44,619 bases of DNA from Candidatus Gastranaerophilales bacterium (lineage in GTDB: Bacteria > Cyanobacteriota > Vampirovibrionia > Gastranaerophilales > Gastranaerophilaceae): assembly GCA_947630535.1 (NCBI GenBank), contig CANRHZ010000011.1, positions 1 through 44,619 on the forward strand, read 5' to 3'. Of the stretch, positions 16,449-44,619 are shown piece by piece. The notes below the pieces were generated by a model. That model made no database searches, was not told where the DNA came from, and saw only the letters and a list, made by a program, of their open reading frames with translations. Positions within the stretch are counted from its first letter, which is position 1, and each line of letters begins with the position of its first letter. The translations under genes and the position numbers were made by a program.

Positions 16449-17417
16449 ATGGATAATTTAAACGGTGTTTATTTGAAAAAATTAGCAGGGTTTACTTTAG
16501 CTGAAGTATTGATAACACTGACGATTATTGGTATCGTTGCTGCAATAACTCTGCCGAGTTTGCTTGTTAACATAAATGATAAGGCTTGGAATGCCCAAAG
16601 AAAAGCTTTCCATGCCAGAATGAGCCAGGCAATAGGAGAAATGGACAGTATATCGGGGTACGGAGAAGTTGAAGTGGGTGAGGATGACCAATTAGTAACC
16701 GATACTGTGGCAGAATCATTTATAATAGACGGGCTATCAAAAGTATATAGAATTCAAAATATTTGTAATAAAAATAATTTGACGGCATGCGGGATTCCAT
16801 CATCCATAATTACAATGTCGGGAGATACAATAAATGCCCCTAAATCAATTGTAGATTTAAATCCTGATTTCGTAGATGAAACATACAGAACGTCTGTTGC
16901 AGGGTTTGAAACCGTGAACGGAGAATCTGTTGCACTGTATTATAATACAAATTGCAAATCTTCATTGGATGGACAGAGCAAAAAAGCACAGGATGCGGTT
17001 TGTGTAAATATGGTTTTTGACCTTAACGGTTTAAAAGGACCAAATGAAGCGGGCAAAGACATAGGCTTTTTAACTGTTTTATATAGAACAAACAGTGTAG
17101 TTGTTGCTCCAATGCCTTTTGCTTCAAGCCCCGGTTCGGCTGCTTTGGTGCCGGGTGACGGAGAAGAAGGGGATGATGCCGCTACATTATGTCAAAAAAT
17201 GAACGAAGATGCAAAGGTGTCTGATATTGATAATCTTATATCATTATTTGCAAACTCTAGGTTAATAAACGGTGGGGATGATAATAACACATATATTTCC
17301 TCTACATCAATAAGTGCAGGTGCAGATGGCACAATCTATAGTTTGGATTTTACTAACGGCGATATTTCGGAAGAAGATAAGAGCGAAGAATTTGAAGTAA
17401 TTTGCATTAAAAGATAA
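16449..17417 (+). CDS. Pseudopilin-like exported protein 1
   Basis: A 322-residue type IV pilin-like protein. A 14-residue prepilin leader ends KKLAG; PilD-type peptidase would cut before FTLAEV, and Glu at mature position 5 is present. The hydrophobic N-helix follows, then a soluble domain with a cysteine pair (CNKNNLTAC), the DLNGLKGPNEAGKD motif (probable calcium loop), and a C-terminal lectin-like region ending in ICIKR. It is paralogous to the genes at 22832-23847 and 43650-44619 but has no homopolymer in the leader and is in frame. Its C-terminal region differs most from theirs. It has its own promoter and terminator, so it is monocistronic. It is probably a minor pilin or secretion pseudopilin. 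Confidence 0.9.
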   Translation: MDNLNGVYLKKLAGFTLAEVLITLTIIGIVAAITLPSLLVNINDKAWNAQRKAFHARMSQAIGEMDSISGYGEVEVGEDDQLVTDTVAESFIIDGLSKVYRIQNICNKNNLTACGIPSSIITMSGDTINAPKSIVDLNPDFVDETYRTSVAGFETVNGESVALYYNTNCKSSLDGQSKKAQDAVCVNMVFDLNGLKGPNEAGKDIGFLTVLYRTNSVVVAPMPFASSPGSAALVPGDGEEGDDAATLCQKMNEDAKVSDIDNLISLFANSRLINGGDDNNTYISSTSISAGADGTIYSLDFTNGDISEEDKSEEFEVICIKR

Positions 17418-22831: not shown

Positions 22832-23847
22832 TTATTTTTTTACACAACGAACGTAGTCTGAGTCCGAGCGTTTGCTCTTGTGGCGATCTCCATAACCCAT
22901 GCTCTGCATCCATGCAAGACCGTTTTCTCCTGATGAAATGACTGAGCCTGACCAGTAATAACCAAATGTTATGCCAATTAAAGAACCGTTAATATACATT
23001 GAACCAAGTTCATCAATATCAGGCAATCTTGCATCATCTCCCAGTTTTGCACAAAGAGAGGCTGCATCATTTGCAGCATTACCTGATGCTCCGCTTTTTG
23101 GATAAGATGCAGCACCTCCCGCATCACTCGGGAATGGATTTGGGGCTACAACAACACTATTTGTTCTATAAAGAACCGTAATAAATCCTACATCTTTTCC
23201 TACTTCATTTGGTCCTTTTAGGCCGTTTAGGTCATATATCATATTAACGCAAGTTTTGGTTTGAGCGTAAGATACATTGTTTGTATCATTTGAGCCGCAG
23301 TTTGGATTGTAAAATAGCGCAACGGATTCACCGTTCACTGTTTCAAAAGCTGCCGCTTTAACATCAGACGTTATTTTATAGTCCTTATCAATATAATCAT
23401 CAGGGTCAGGATATTCAGTAAAATAAGGGTTTAATTCATTTAAGCTTTTTGGAAAAGCAATAGTAGCACCATTCAATGTAATAATAGATGACGGTATACC
23501 GCATGCAGATAAATTATTTGAATTACAGATGTTTTGTACTCTATAGACTTTTGATAGTCCATCAATTATAAAAGCTTCTGCCGCACCATCTTCTATTTCG
23601 GTTTCACTTTGCCCGTTTGATGAGCCATAACCTGAAATACTATCCATCTCACCAATTGCCTGGCTCATTCTTGCATATAAGGCTTTCTTTTGAGCATTCC
23701 AAGCTTTATCGTTGACGTTCACAAGTAAACTGGGTAAAGTAATAGCTGCTACGATACCAATAATTGTTAGTGTTATCAATACTTCAGCTAAAGTAAATCC
23801 GCCTAATCCCTTGGGGGGGGGGGGTAAGCTCCAAACAATTTAACCAT
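22832..23847 (-). CDS. Pseudopilin-like protein 2, C-tract phase-variable, OFF as assembled
   Basis: The body (315 residues from an internal TTG at 23779) is paralogous to pseudopilin 1. The true start is ATG at 23847: GGGAG lies eight bases before it and a TTGAAA-17-TAAAAT promoter just upstream. The leader reads MVKLFGAY, then a C-tract (12 G on the plus strand, 23813-23824), then KGLGG before FTLAEV. With 12 C the leader hits TAG three codons after the tract; 10 or 13 C would give an in-frame protein with a PPP or PPPP leader. The body has a cysteine pair, the DLNGLKGPNEVGKD loop, and a lectin-like C-terminus with YWSGSVISSGENG and VRCVKK. All other frames are intact, so it looks switched off and not decayed. 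A sequencing error in the homopolymer is the alternative. Confidence 0.8.
23813..23824 (-). repeat. Homopolymeric C12 tract in prepilin leader
   Basis: Twelve consecutive G on the plus strand (C on the coding strand) in a genome that is strongly AT-rich. The tract lies within the leader codons of pseudopilin 2. The same tract with identical flanking bases begins at 44613 in pseudopilin 3. Confidence 0.9.
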
Positions 23848-23882
23848 AAATTAAACTCCCATCTATATTTTAGTACAATTTC

Positions 23883-23911
23883 ATTTTATCAAATTGTTTT
23901 TAACTTTTCAA
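23883..23911 (-). promoter_or_regulatory. Promoter of pseudopilin gene 2
   Basis: On the minus strand TTGAAA (23906-23911) and TAAAAT (23883-23888) are 17 bases apart. The -35 box and spacing are those of the pseudopilin 1 promoter. It lies 35 bases before the ATG at 23847. Confidence 0.7.
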
Positions 23912-40629: not shown

Positions 40630-40783
40630 AAATCCTATCGGAGCATTTTATATTTAGGATAAAGCCATAATGACCAATATATACCTCCCTCATTTTATAA
40701 ATATATTAATTTTTCCAATGCGCTTGAAAATCCTCAATTTGTTTAATCGTATTTTGATAATCCCCGCTAAATCTGTCAACACT

Positions 40784-40990
40784 GTCATGCTGAACTGCGG
40801 ATTTCCGTACGGACTAGGGCGAAGCCAAGTCTGGATAGCGAGAACATGGAGCGGGCTTGAACCATAGGTTCAACTGCGGAACTGTTCGAGCGTGGAGGAA
40901 ATCCAAGACAGTTTCAGCATCTTATCATGTTGCAGGTATATCAATAAATTTTTGCAGCTTCATTTTTGCTATTCTTTACATCTTAAGACC
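40784..40990 (-). repeat. Intergenic repeat B, right copy
   Basis: The reverse complement of 389-602 with about 95% identity by eye, including the TTGAACC/GGTTCAA palindrome. The second hairpin is broken here (CCAAGT in place of CCTAGT). Confidence 0.85.
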
Positions 40991-41007
40991 CTGAAACAAG
41001 TTCAGGG
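40989..41007. repeat. CCCTGAA/TTCAGGG palindrome
   Basis: Perfect 7-bp arms around a five-base loop, the same motif as at 767-785 and 41118-41136. Confidence 0.85.
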
Positions 41008-41051
41008 TGACATTATACAGGGTAGGGATTGTATTTAAGTTAATAAATGTC

Positions 41052-41072
41052 ATGCTGAACTCGTTTCAGCAT
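41052..41072. repeat. ATGCTGAA/TTCAGCAT palindrome
   Basis: Perfect 8-bp arms around a five-base loop, the second palindrome type of the repeat blocks. Confidence 0.85.
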
Positions 41073-41117
41073 CTGAGTAGCGCATAAATCCCATATTATA
41101 TTCTTGCGCCGGTAAGA

Positions 41118-41136
41118 CCCTGAAACAAGTTCAGGG
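41118..41136. repeat. CCCTGAA/TTCAGGG palindrome
   Basis: Perfect 7-bp arms around ACAAG. The following ~95 bases are the inverse of 676-776. Confidence 0.85.
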
Positions 41137-41606
41137 TGACAAGGGAAAGTGTAATGTTGTTAGTGCATACTTCAAGGCTTTACAAGGCTCGTACCTCGCC
41201 TGTTTTCTTTACAAAGTTCAGGGTGACAAGGGAAGTTAATGTGTGTTACTTTACAAGGGGAGAAATACCATAAGAATTATAAAACAATAGATTTAAAATT
41301 CGATTGTTTTTGCATAAAAATATTACTCTTTAAAAATTGCCCAGAAAGGTAGTATGTAGGTTTTTAATTTTGTATTTGAATAAACTTGTCAAGAAAGGTT
41401 ATAAATTTAATTTTAAAAGACTGTTAAATTTTAAAAACCCCATTTAAAATAAAAGGTTTTAGAAATAAACGGCTTTAAAATAAAAAAAAGGGAGTTTATC
41501 AAAAACCCCCATTTCCCCATTAAAAATCTTTTTCAATACTTATAAGTATATTCTTGCATATAAAATATTAAATGCAAGAAATTTACATTTTTTTCTTAAT
41601 AAAAAT

Positions 41607-43649: not shown

Positions 43650-44619
43650 CTACCTTTTTATGCAGCGAACATTGGTTGTGTGCGAGCGGGTAAACCTGAT
43701 GCGATACCCATTACTCATATACTGTTCCCATGCAAGGCCTTTTTCCCCTGAAGAAATGACGGAGCCTGACCAGTAGTTACCGGAACCAATGCCAAGTAAA
43801 TAACTGTTGACAAACATTGAACCCAGTTCATCAATATCAGGTATCCTTGCATCATCACTCAGTTTGGTGCAGGCAGATGAAGCATCATTTCCGCTTTCAC
43901 TATAGGATGGAAGCATTGATGTTGAAGCATTACTTGGGAATGGATTAGGTGCTACAACAACACTATCTGTTCTATAAAGAACCGTAATAAACCCTACATC
44001 CTTTCCGACTTCATTTGGGCCTTTTAGGCCGTTTAGGTCATATATCATATTAACGCAAGTTTTAGTTTGAACATAATGATTGCTCTCTACTTTTGAACCG
44101 CAATTTGGATTATAGAATAGTGCAACGGATTCGCCGTTAACGGTTTCAAAGGCTGCCGCTTTAATATCGGTTGTAAGTTTATAATCATCTTCTGAATAAT
44201 CGTCATCAGGATATTGAGTAAAATAAGGGTTCAGTTCTTTTAAAGTTGTTGGAAATTTTAGAGTAGTTCCGTTCAATGTAATAACGGATGATGGTATCCC
44301 GCATGCAGATAAATTATTTGAATTACAGATATTTTGTACTCTATAGACTTTTGATAGTCCATCAATTATAAAGCTTTCTGCCGCACTATCTATAATTTCA
44401 TCTTCCGTTTCGTTATTTGATGAGCCATAACCTGAAATACTATCCATCTCTCCTATTGCTTGGCTCATTCTTGCATAAAGTGCTTTTCTTTGAGCGTTCC
44501 ATGCTTTATCGTTAACGTTCACAAGTAAACTTGGCAGAGTAATTGCTGCAACGATACCAATAATCGTTAATGTTATCAATACTTCAGCTAAAGTAAATCC
44601 GCCTAATCCCTTGGGGGGG
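43650..44619 (-). CDS. Pseudopilin-like protein 3, cut by the window edge in its C-tract
   Basis: The body is 309 residues from an internal TTG at 44579; the frame continues through GGFTLAEV and KGLGG to a run of seven C (plus-strand G, 44613-44619) where the window ends. Tract length, start and promoter are outside. It is nearly identical at the N-terminus to pseudopilin 2 and shares the DLNGLKGPNEVGKD loop and the lectin-like C-terminus (YWSGSVISSGEKG, VRCIKR), but the last ~20 residues differ strongly. Whether it is ON or OFF cannot be known here. Confidence 0.85.
   Translation of the reverse strand, partial: PPKGLGGFTLAEVLITLTIIGIVAAITLPSLLVNVNDKAWNAQRKALYARMSQAIGEMDSISGYGSSNNETEDEIIDSAAESFIIDGLSKVYRVQNICNSNNLSACGIPSSVITLNGTTLKFPTTLKELNPYFTQYPDDDYSEDDYKLTTDIKAAAFETVNGESVALFYNPNCGSKVESNHYVQTKTCVNMIYDLNGLKGPNEVGKDVGFITVLYRTDSVVVAPNPFPSNASTSMLPSYSESGNDASSACTKLSDDARIPDIDELGSMFVNSYLLGIGSGNYWSGSVISSGEKGLAWEQYMSNGYRIRFTRSHTTNVRCIKR
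44613..44619 (-). repeat. Start of a homopolymeric C tract at the window edge
   Basis: Seven consecutive G on the plus strand reach the last base. The flanking sequence (CCGCCTAATCCCTT) is identical to that beside the C12 tract at 23813. Confidence 0.85.

Follow-up and report, generated by a model that had tools for sequence, protein, structure and literature searches.

Most diversity-generating retroelements (DGRs) in the literature that we examined have one to a few targets, and the clearest case is Treponema denticola, in which each isolate has two to seven (PMC4891356). In the DGR of the Bordetella phage BPP-1 (mtd, avd, TR, brt), a hairpin that follows the variable segment of the target (VR) is important (PMC3240598). 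In cyanobacteria, 76 remote targets are spread across 21 genomes (PMC7517822). A survey reported many VRs per template (TR) in some genomes, with the 91 TR-VR pairs claimed for one Pseudomonas drawing on 6 TRs and, within a single ORF, 21 merged VRs, and also gave DUF1566 proteins as known DGR targets (PMC6642488). In the account relayed in PMC12632263, DGRs of Bacteroides diversify the tip pilins of type V pili (Macadangdang et al., 2025). Phase-variable genes, for their part, have been described in Neisseria (PMC5084427).

Here, we consider a DGR in a Candidatus Gastranaerophilales bacterium. The window, that is, the whole stretch of 44,619 nt that we analyzed, is the entire contig C11 of a 1.85-Mb genome assembled in 72 contigs and 98.5% complete (GCA_947630535.1). 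We posit, with considerable confidence, that the VRs of two pseudopilin genes in this window are targets in trans of a DGR in which one TR serves at least 45 pilin-like genes, and that, in most of these genes whose 5' end is assembled, translation is probably gated by poly-C tracts. Our literature search returned no report joining a DGR with Gastranaerophilales or Melainabacteria, and it found no poly-C leaders on DGR-targeted pilins.

Pseudopilin genes of the window

Pseudopilin copy 2 lies on the reverse strand at positions 22832 to 23847, counted from its likely ATG to its stop codon. As assembled, the gene is out of frame at a run of 12 C in its prepilin leader (23813 to 23824, reverse strand), where 10 or 13 C would be needed to keep the frame, and the listed open frame begins at 23779. 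On the same strand, and judged by sequence, the ATG is preceded by a Shine-Dalgarno-like GGGAG (23856 to 23860) and by a sigma-70-like promoter (23883 to 23911) in which TTGAAA (23906 to 23911) and TAAAAT (23883 to 23888) are separated by 17 nt. The VR of copy 2, stop codon included, spans 22832 to 22964 (reverse strand) and aligns with the TR without a gap (99/133 identical). Copy 3, also on the reverse strand, is truncated by the contig end (43650 to 44619); 7 C of its poly-C tract form that end (44613 to 44619), and its VR, again with the stop codon, occupies 43650 to 43782 and is identical to the TR at 101/133 positions. Copy 1 (16449 to 17417, forward strand) belongs to the same family and has a Pfam N_methyl match. 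It was considered as a DGR target and rejected given that its TR similarity is at background (46/133) and that it has no poly-C tract; as its sequence reads, it is not a target now. Near both contig ends, at 152 to 788 and 40783 to 41255, the window also carries inverted repeats of ~30 to 220 nt that are 91 to 95% alike and lie outside the pilin family.

The initial annotation of the window, made from its sequence alone, read the C termini of copies 2 and 3 as hypervariable in the pattern of a DGR target. That hypervariability is real, but its extent was drawn too short, since the VR is 133 bp long with the stop codon (22832 to 22964 in copy 2). In the 19 codons after the shared G-LAW segment, which read MQSMGYGDRHKSKRSDSDY and EQYMSNGYRIRFTRSHTTN in the two copies, our recount is identical to the original one, that is, 13 codons that differ in amino acid and 24 base differences, 18 of them with A in one copy. 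A further three differences had been proposed to stem from a template A, and the TR has A at exactly three of the other six. Template adenines, which make up 25 of the 57 positions, account in total for 16 of the 24 base differences (Fisher p = 0.0034). Because the TR was found only after the prediction had been made, it provides an independent test of that prediction.

Across the whole VR, the case from the two window copies alone is modest: each differs from the TR at 12 of 34 template adenines, with differences at 17/87 and 14/87 of the other positions (p = 0.059 and 0.022). It is the genome-wide evidence that is decisive. The window VRs rank among the more diverged copies, so an earlier template may have written them or their rewriting may have ceased.

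The retroelement and its targets

The initial annotation had concluded that the element would have to act in trans, and it had proposed searching the genome for a DGR reverse transcriptase (RT) and for a short repeat with AAY triplets. Both are in the same assembly, where a complete DGR on contig C30 (19757 to 21642) has the gene order avd, TR, RT, as in BPP-1. The RT (C30:20428-21642, 404 aa) carries the motifs IGNLTSQ and YVDD and matches the PHROG reverse transcriptase at 2.7e-99; among PDB sequences, it is most similar to 8ub7 (1e-35), which we take to be the Bordetella DGR RT. Avd, a protein of 113 aa encoded upstream of the RT, scores 59.3 bits against Pfam bAvd (cut-off 40) and matches the PHROG "Avd protein of DGR" at 6.4e-22, while its 52 bits against NCBIfam DivGenRetAVD are under the curated cut-off of 80. 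Between the two genes is the TR, 133 bp long (C30:20267-20399), which ends 28 nt ahead of the RT start. Its translation is GNYWSGSVISSGASGLAWKQNMNNGNRNRNTRSNSNYVRCLRR, followed by a stop, and AAC or AAT codons stand at most of the variable positions. No target gene adjoining the DGR was found on contig C30. The genome has two reverse transcriptases; the second (C50, 1378 to 2292) was considered as a DGR and rejected, as it is retron-like (PADLOC RT_VI, 1.7e-79), and a small helix-turn-helix-like ORF lies immediately upstream of it.

At the 3' end, VRs and TR largely have the GTTCGCTGC block in common, followed by CTCAGGAGATAA in the TR versus mostly RTDAAAAGATAA in the VRs; in a relative, G001, many VR copies are identical to their TR over this 3' (putative IMH/IMH*) segment. 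Unlike in BPP-1, no consistent hairpin was found directly 3' of the VR in this genome, in which some copies have terminator-like repeats. In G001, a palindrome, TTGTCATTTTGC.AAAATGTGACAA, stands just 3' of many VRs and may correspond to the hairpin of the BPP-1 target.

The TR matches 32 places in the genome at the DNA level, itself counted and hence 31 elsewhere, and pilin protein matches occur at 63 places. When VRs are taken as gene 3' ends that align gap-free to most of the TR with at least 77/133 positions identical, there are at least 45 distinct ones, both window copies included, all of them at the 3' ends of paralogous pseudopilin genes dispersed over the genome. All 45 are mutually different, and no stop codons were found within them (0/45). 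Like those of BPP-1, the TR-to-VR differences are adenine directed: in the 22 closest VRs, differences are found at 42% of the template adenines versus 13.5% of C, 8.5% of G, and 8.9% of T positions. As a control, the 45 gene copies took the place of the TR one by one as mock templates. The ratio of A to non-A differences over the 15 nearest sequences was 5.5 for the TR versus at most 2.5 for the best gene copy, and with none matching the TR bias, the gene copies were rejected as templates. By computation, ~3e16 protein variants would be reachable via the template adenines alone.

We searched 58 genomes for the expanded pilin family and an RT, and the family occurs with a close RT in 3 of them, namely, this one, G001, and G017. 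G001, a second species of the same genus, has its own TR, which matches 38 places besides itself, and in the 29 VRs measured there, differences amount to 0.498 at A versus 0.119 elsewhere (p = 1e-110). In G017, a member of the same family, the corresponding values for 8 VRs are 0.444 and 0.058. Another genome, G004, has 14 pilin paralogs; it was rejected as a case of DGR targets, given that the C termini inspected there are unlike the template pattern and that a close RT is absent. Three more genomes (G025, G029, and G042) have more distant DGR RTs with local repeats nearby, and no expanded pilin family was detected in these three.

Could the number of targets be inflated, with variants from several strains at a smaller set of loci placed in one bin? 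Many copies do sit at contig ends, 54 of the 144 ends being within 300 nt of a pilin-family gene, which makes loci hard to separate and also implies that short-read assemblies will undercount such families. Nonetheless, we consider inflation very unlikely: the contamination estimate is 0.62%, all 45 VRs are distinct, the contig extends far to one side or both of most of them, and G001, with its longer contigs, still has 38 TR matches. Could gene conversion among paralogs, akin to that between pilE and pilS in Neisseria, create the diversity without a retroelement? The many copies with near-identical leaders and flanks make added shuffling likely, but shuffling cannot yield a bias toward the adenines of a non-coding template located between Avd and RT. 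Given also that any gene copy explains the variable positions less well than the TR does, and that two other species show the bias again, each with a template of its own, gene conversion in place of a retroelement strikes us as extremely improbable.

A further question is whether the DGR is a relic, one that wrote the VRs in the past and has since given way to ordinary paralog divergence and recombination. Many non-adenine differences are indeed carried by 23 of the 45 VRs and by both window copies, and TR positions 40, 103, and 122 to 127 are unlike most or all VRs; where the TR is unlike nearly all VRs (e.g., positions 40 and 103), either the TR has drifted or older copies are frozen. Set against this reading are the intact RT and Avd genes, the existence of VRs that are of nearly pure adenine type (differences at A in C38, 14/16; in C7, 16/18; in C25, 18/21), and a VR in G001 that differs from its TR at just 8 of 132 positions. 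In our judgment, a relic is quite unlikely. The template, the adenine-directed pattern, and the number of copies are observed in the assembly, and we infer that retrohoming into these pilin genes continues at present.

Predicted fold and poly-C leaders of the target pilins

In the AlphaFold model of copy 2, which is confident (mean pLDDT, 86; pTM, 0.85), a long N-terminal pilin helix (3 to 44) is followed by two domains, one in the middle and one at the C terminus. The top PDB match of the C-terminal domain, and thus its best solved-structure match, is the C-type-lectin domain of Legionella Lcl, a DUF1566 (Lcl_C) protein (8q4e; E = 7e-4; TM, 0.61 by target length), with C-type lectins ranking next. 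Matches in a viral structure library are mainly phage DUF1566 proteins, in keeping with this fold, and the Pfam Lcl_C score is 21.4, under the cut-off of 34.9. The variable domain is therefore predicted to have a C-type-lectin fold, in agreement with the lectin-like C-terminal domain that had been suggested from the sequence, and as in BPP-1, the VR would then lie at the extreme 3' end of the gene for a C-type-lectin protein. Unlike in Lcl, the domain here is fused to a type IV pilin N terminus. The leaders are of the prepilin type, with a G^FTLAE site and a hydrophobic N-terminal helix, and the genome encodes a prepilin peptidase (Peptidase_A24, 1.6e-15) and type IV/type II assembly ATPases (T2SSE, 2.4e-122). 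The likeliest role of these proteins, we infer, is that of a pilus-borne adhesin.

Where the 5' flank is intact, nearly all of the paralogs are preceded by a TTGAAA-N17-TAAAAT-like promoter and by a GGGAG ribosome-binding site of their own. Most of them then have an uninterrupted C tract in the leader, placed after the ATG and before the G^FTLAE site of cleavage; in at least 24 genes, this tract is 10 to 13 C long. The 24 leaders that are complete on both sides have 10 C (1 leader), 11 C (6 leaders), 12 C (16 leaders), or 13 C (1 leader), with the qualification that the read type of the assembly is unspecified and that homopolymer calls of 11 to 13 may err by one. As assembled, 23/24 are out of frame, the 13-C copy being the sole exception; the chance that at most 1 of 24 tracts would be in frame is ~8e-4. 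In the window, 4 overlapping 9-C matches are observed versus 0.09 expected. Five further poly-C runs occur in a single region of another contig (G000:C16:1-15500; at 1223, 9374, 10429, 12667, and 14091), and as one of these is near the start of a long glycosyltransferase-like frame ("VSVIIPV"), surface-sugar genes may be phase variable as well.

Poly-C pilin leaders extend beyond this genome. A scan of the family for at least 9 C followed within 30 nt by the pilin motif found them in 21 of 288 genomes and in 6 genera, versus 0 matches in the same 288 genomes for the reversed pattern that served as a control. Poly-C prepilin leaders were seen in G149 (contigs C35 and C86) and in 18 other genomes, with up to ~22 C in G149. 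The same scan found no poly-C leader tracts in G001 and G017. In G001, many target genes have an upstream palindrome-like element resembling TTGCACCAA..TTGGTGCAA, which suggests a common regulator that would replace poly-C there. With two relatives devoid of such tracts and many genes of one of them carrying a palindrome instead, the evolution of writing seems to be separate from that of gating.

In the mechanism that we propose, the copying of TR RNA would be error prone at template adenines, and the resulting cDNA would substitute for ~120 bp at the 3' end of target genes, such that mutagenic retrohoming would alter lectin-tip residues in trans. For most targets with an assembled 5' end, slippage of the C tract in the leader would probably set which genes are translated. 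The tract precedes the peptidase cut that we predict, so a change in its length would turn production of the protein on or off and leave the mature pilin unaltered. Selection in the gut may then favor useful binders or escape. The promoters, the tracts, and their frames are read directly from the assembly; what they predict is phase variation stacked on retroelement hypermutation, with tract lengths that would vary within a population.

Is the poly-C tract indeed a switch? The leader could instead be a fixed-frame proline leader, the lengths could be off by one, or the frame could be bypassed by frameshifting or by an alternative start. Assemblies are error prone at homopolymers of 11 to 13, and a length of exactly 12 is read in 16 of the 24 tracts. 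One paralog has an interrupted version that is in frame, LLPPPTKGLIGFTL, and in the sequence of some leaders, an alternative TTG start is in frame at 11 C, so that 11 C need not be fully off. However, pure C runs are very improbable at the GC content of 33% found here, and mixed codons could keep a proline leader; poly-C leaders occur in unrelated sequence contexts in 6 genera; and 10, 11, 12, and 13 C are all found among near-identical leaders. We thus regard a tract that does not act as a switch as unlikely. Going beyond gating as such, we speculate that the repertoire may have two tiers, in which the retroelement rewrites the tips of ~45 or more pilins and poly-C keeps nearly all of them off, with one or a few displayed at a time, which would amount to serial, nearly single-variant expression that needs no silent cassettes. 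This extension is tentative and, to us, somewhat doubtful, although it fits the single in-frame tract among 24 (~8e-4), provided that the assembled lengths are right.

Relation to known systems

The size of the target family and the poly-C layer are additions to what was foreseen in the initial annotation, and both bear on why the system matters. One template appears to serve ~45 dispersed genes (~38 in the relative), which is a natural case of target choice. A recent laboratory study has proposed that location or orientation sets the rate of a DGR (PMC12875486); does the location or orientation of a target set the rate at which it is rewritten here? The system is suited to asking this question. 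The poly-C tracts, in turn, would make this a repertoire in which variants are written in one step and selected in another, in a gut lineage that is uncultured, and one cell line could show an enormous array of binding surfaces that can be switched.

Homopolymer switching and pilE/pilS recombination vary pilus-related proteins in Neisseria. The system described here is similar in that homopolymer switching (predicted in our case) and subunit diversity both act on pilus-related proteins. It differs in that the diversity is made by a retroelement, such that silent cassettes are unnecessary, and in that the tract belongs to the variable subunit's own leader, which is cleaved off. With the Bacteroides DGRs, as far as they are portrayed in the account cited at the outset, it shares the use of a DGR by gut bacteria to vary adhesive subunits of a pilus; in contrast to the type V lipoprotein pilins of that account, the subunits here are type IV prepilin-like, belong to a large paralog set, and have poly-C leaders. 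Compared with BPP-1, where one linked target encodes a tail fibre, at least 45 unlinked targets encode host pilin-like proteins, and none was found next to the DGR on contig C30. Like the DGRs of T. denticola and cyanobacteria, this one has a single TR that serves several dispersed lectin-fold genes in trans, but unlike in those cases, a single genome of 1.85 Mb holds 45 targets, and that of a relative holds 38. In total, this is a known kind of system that is unusual in its number of targets and in its coupling of a DGR to poly-C tracts.
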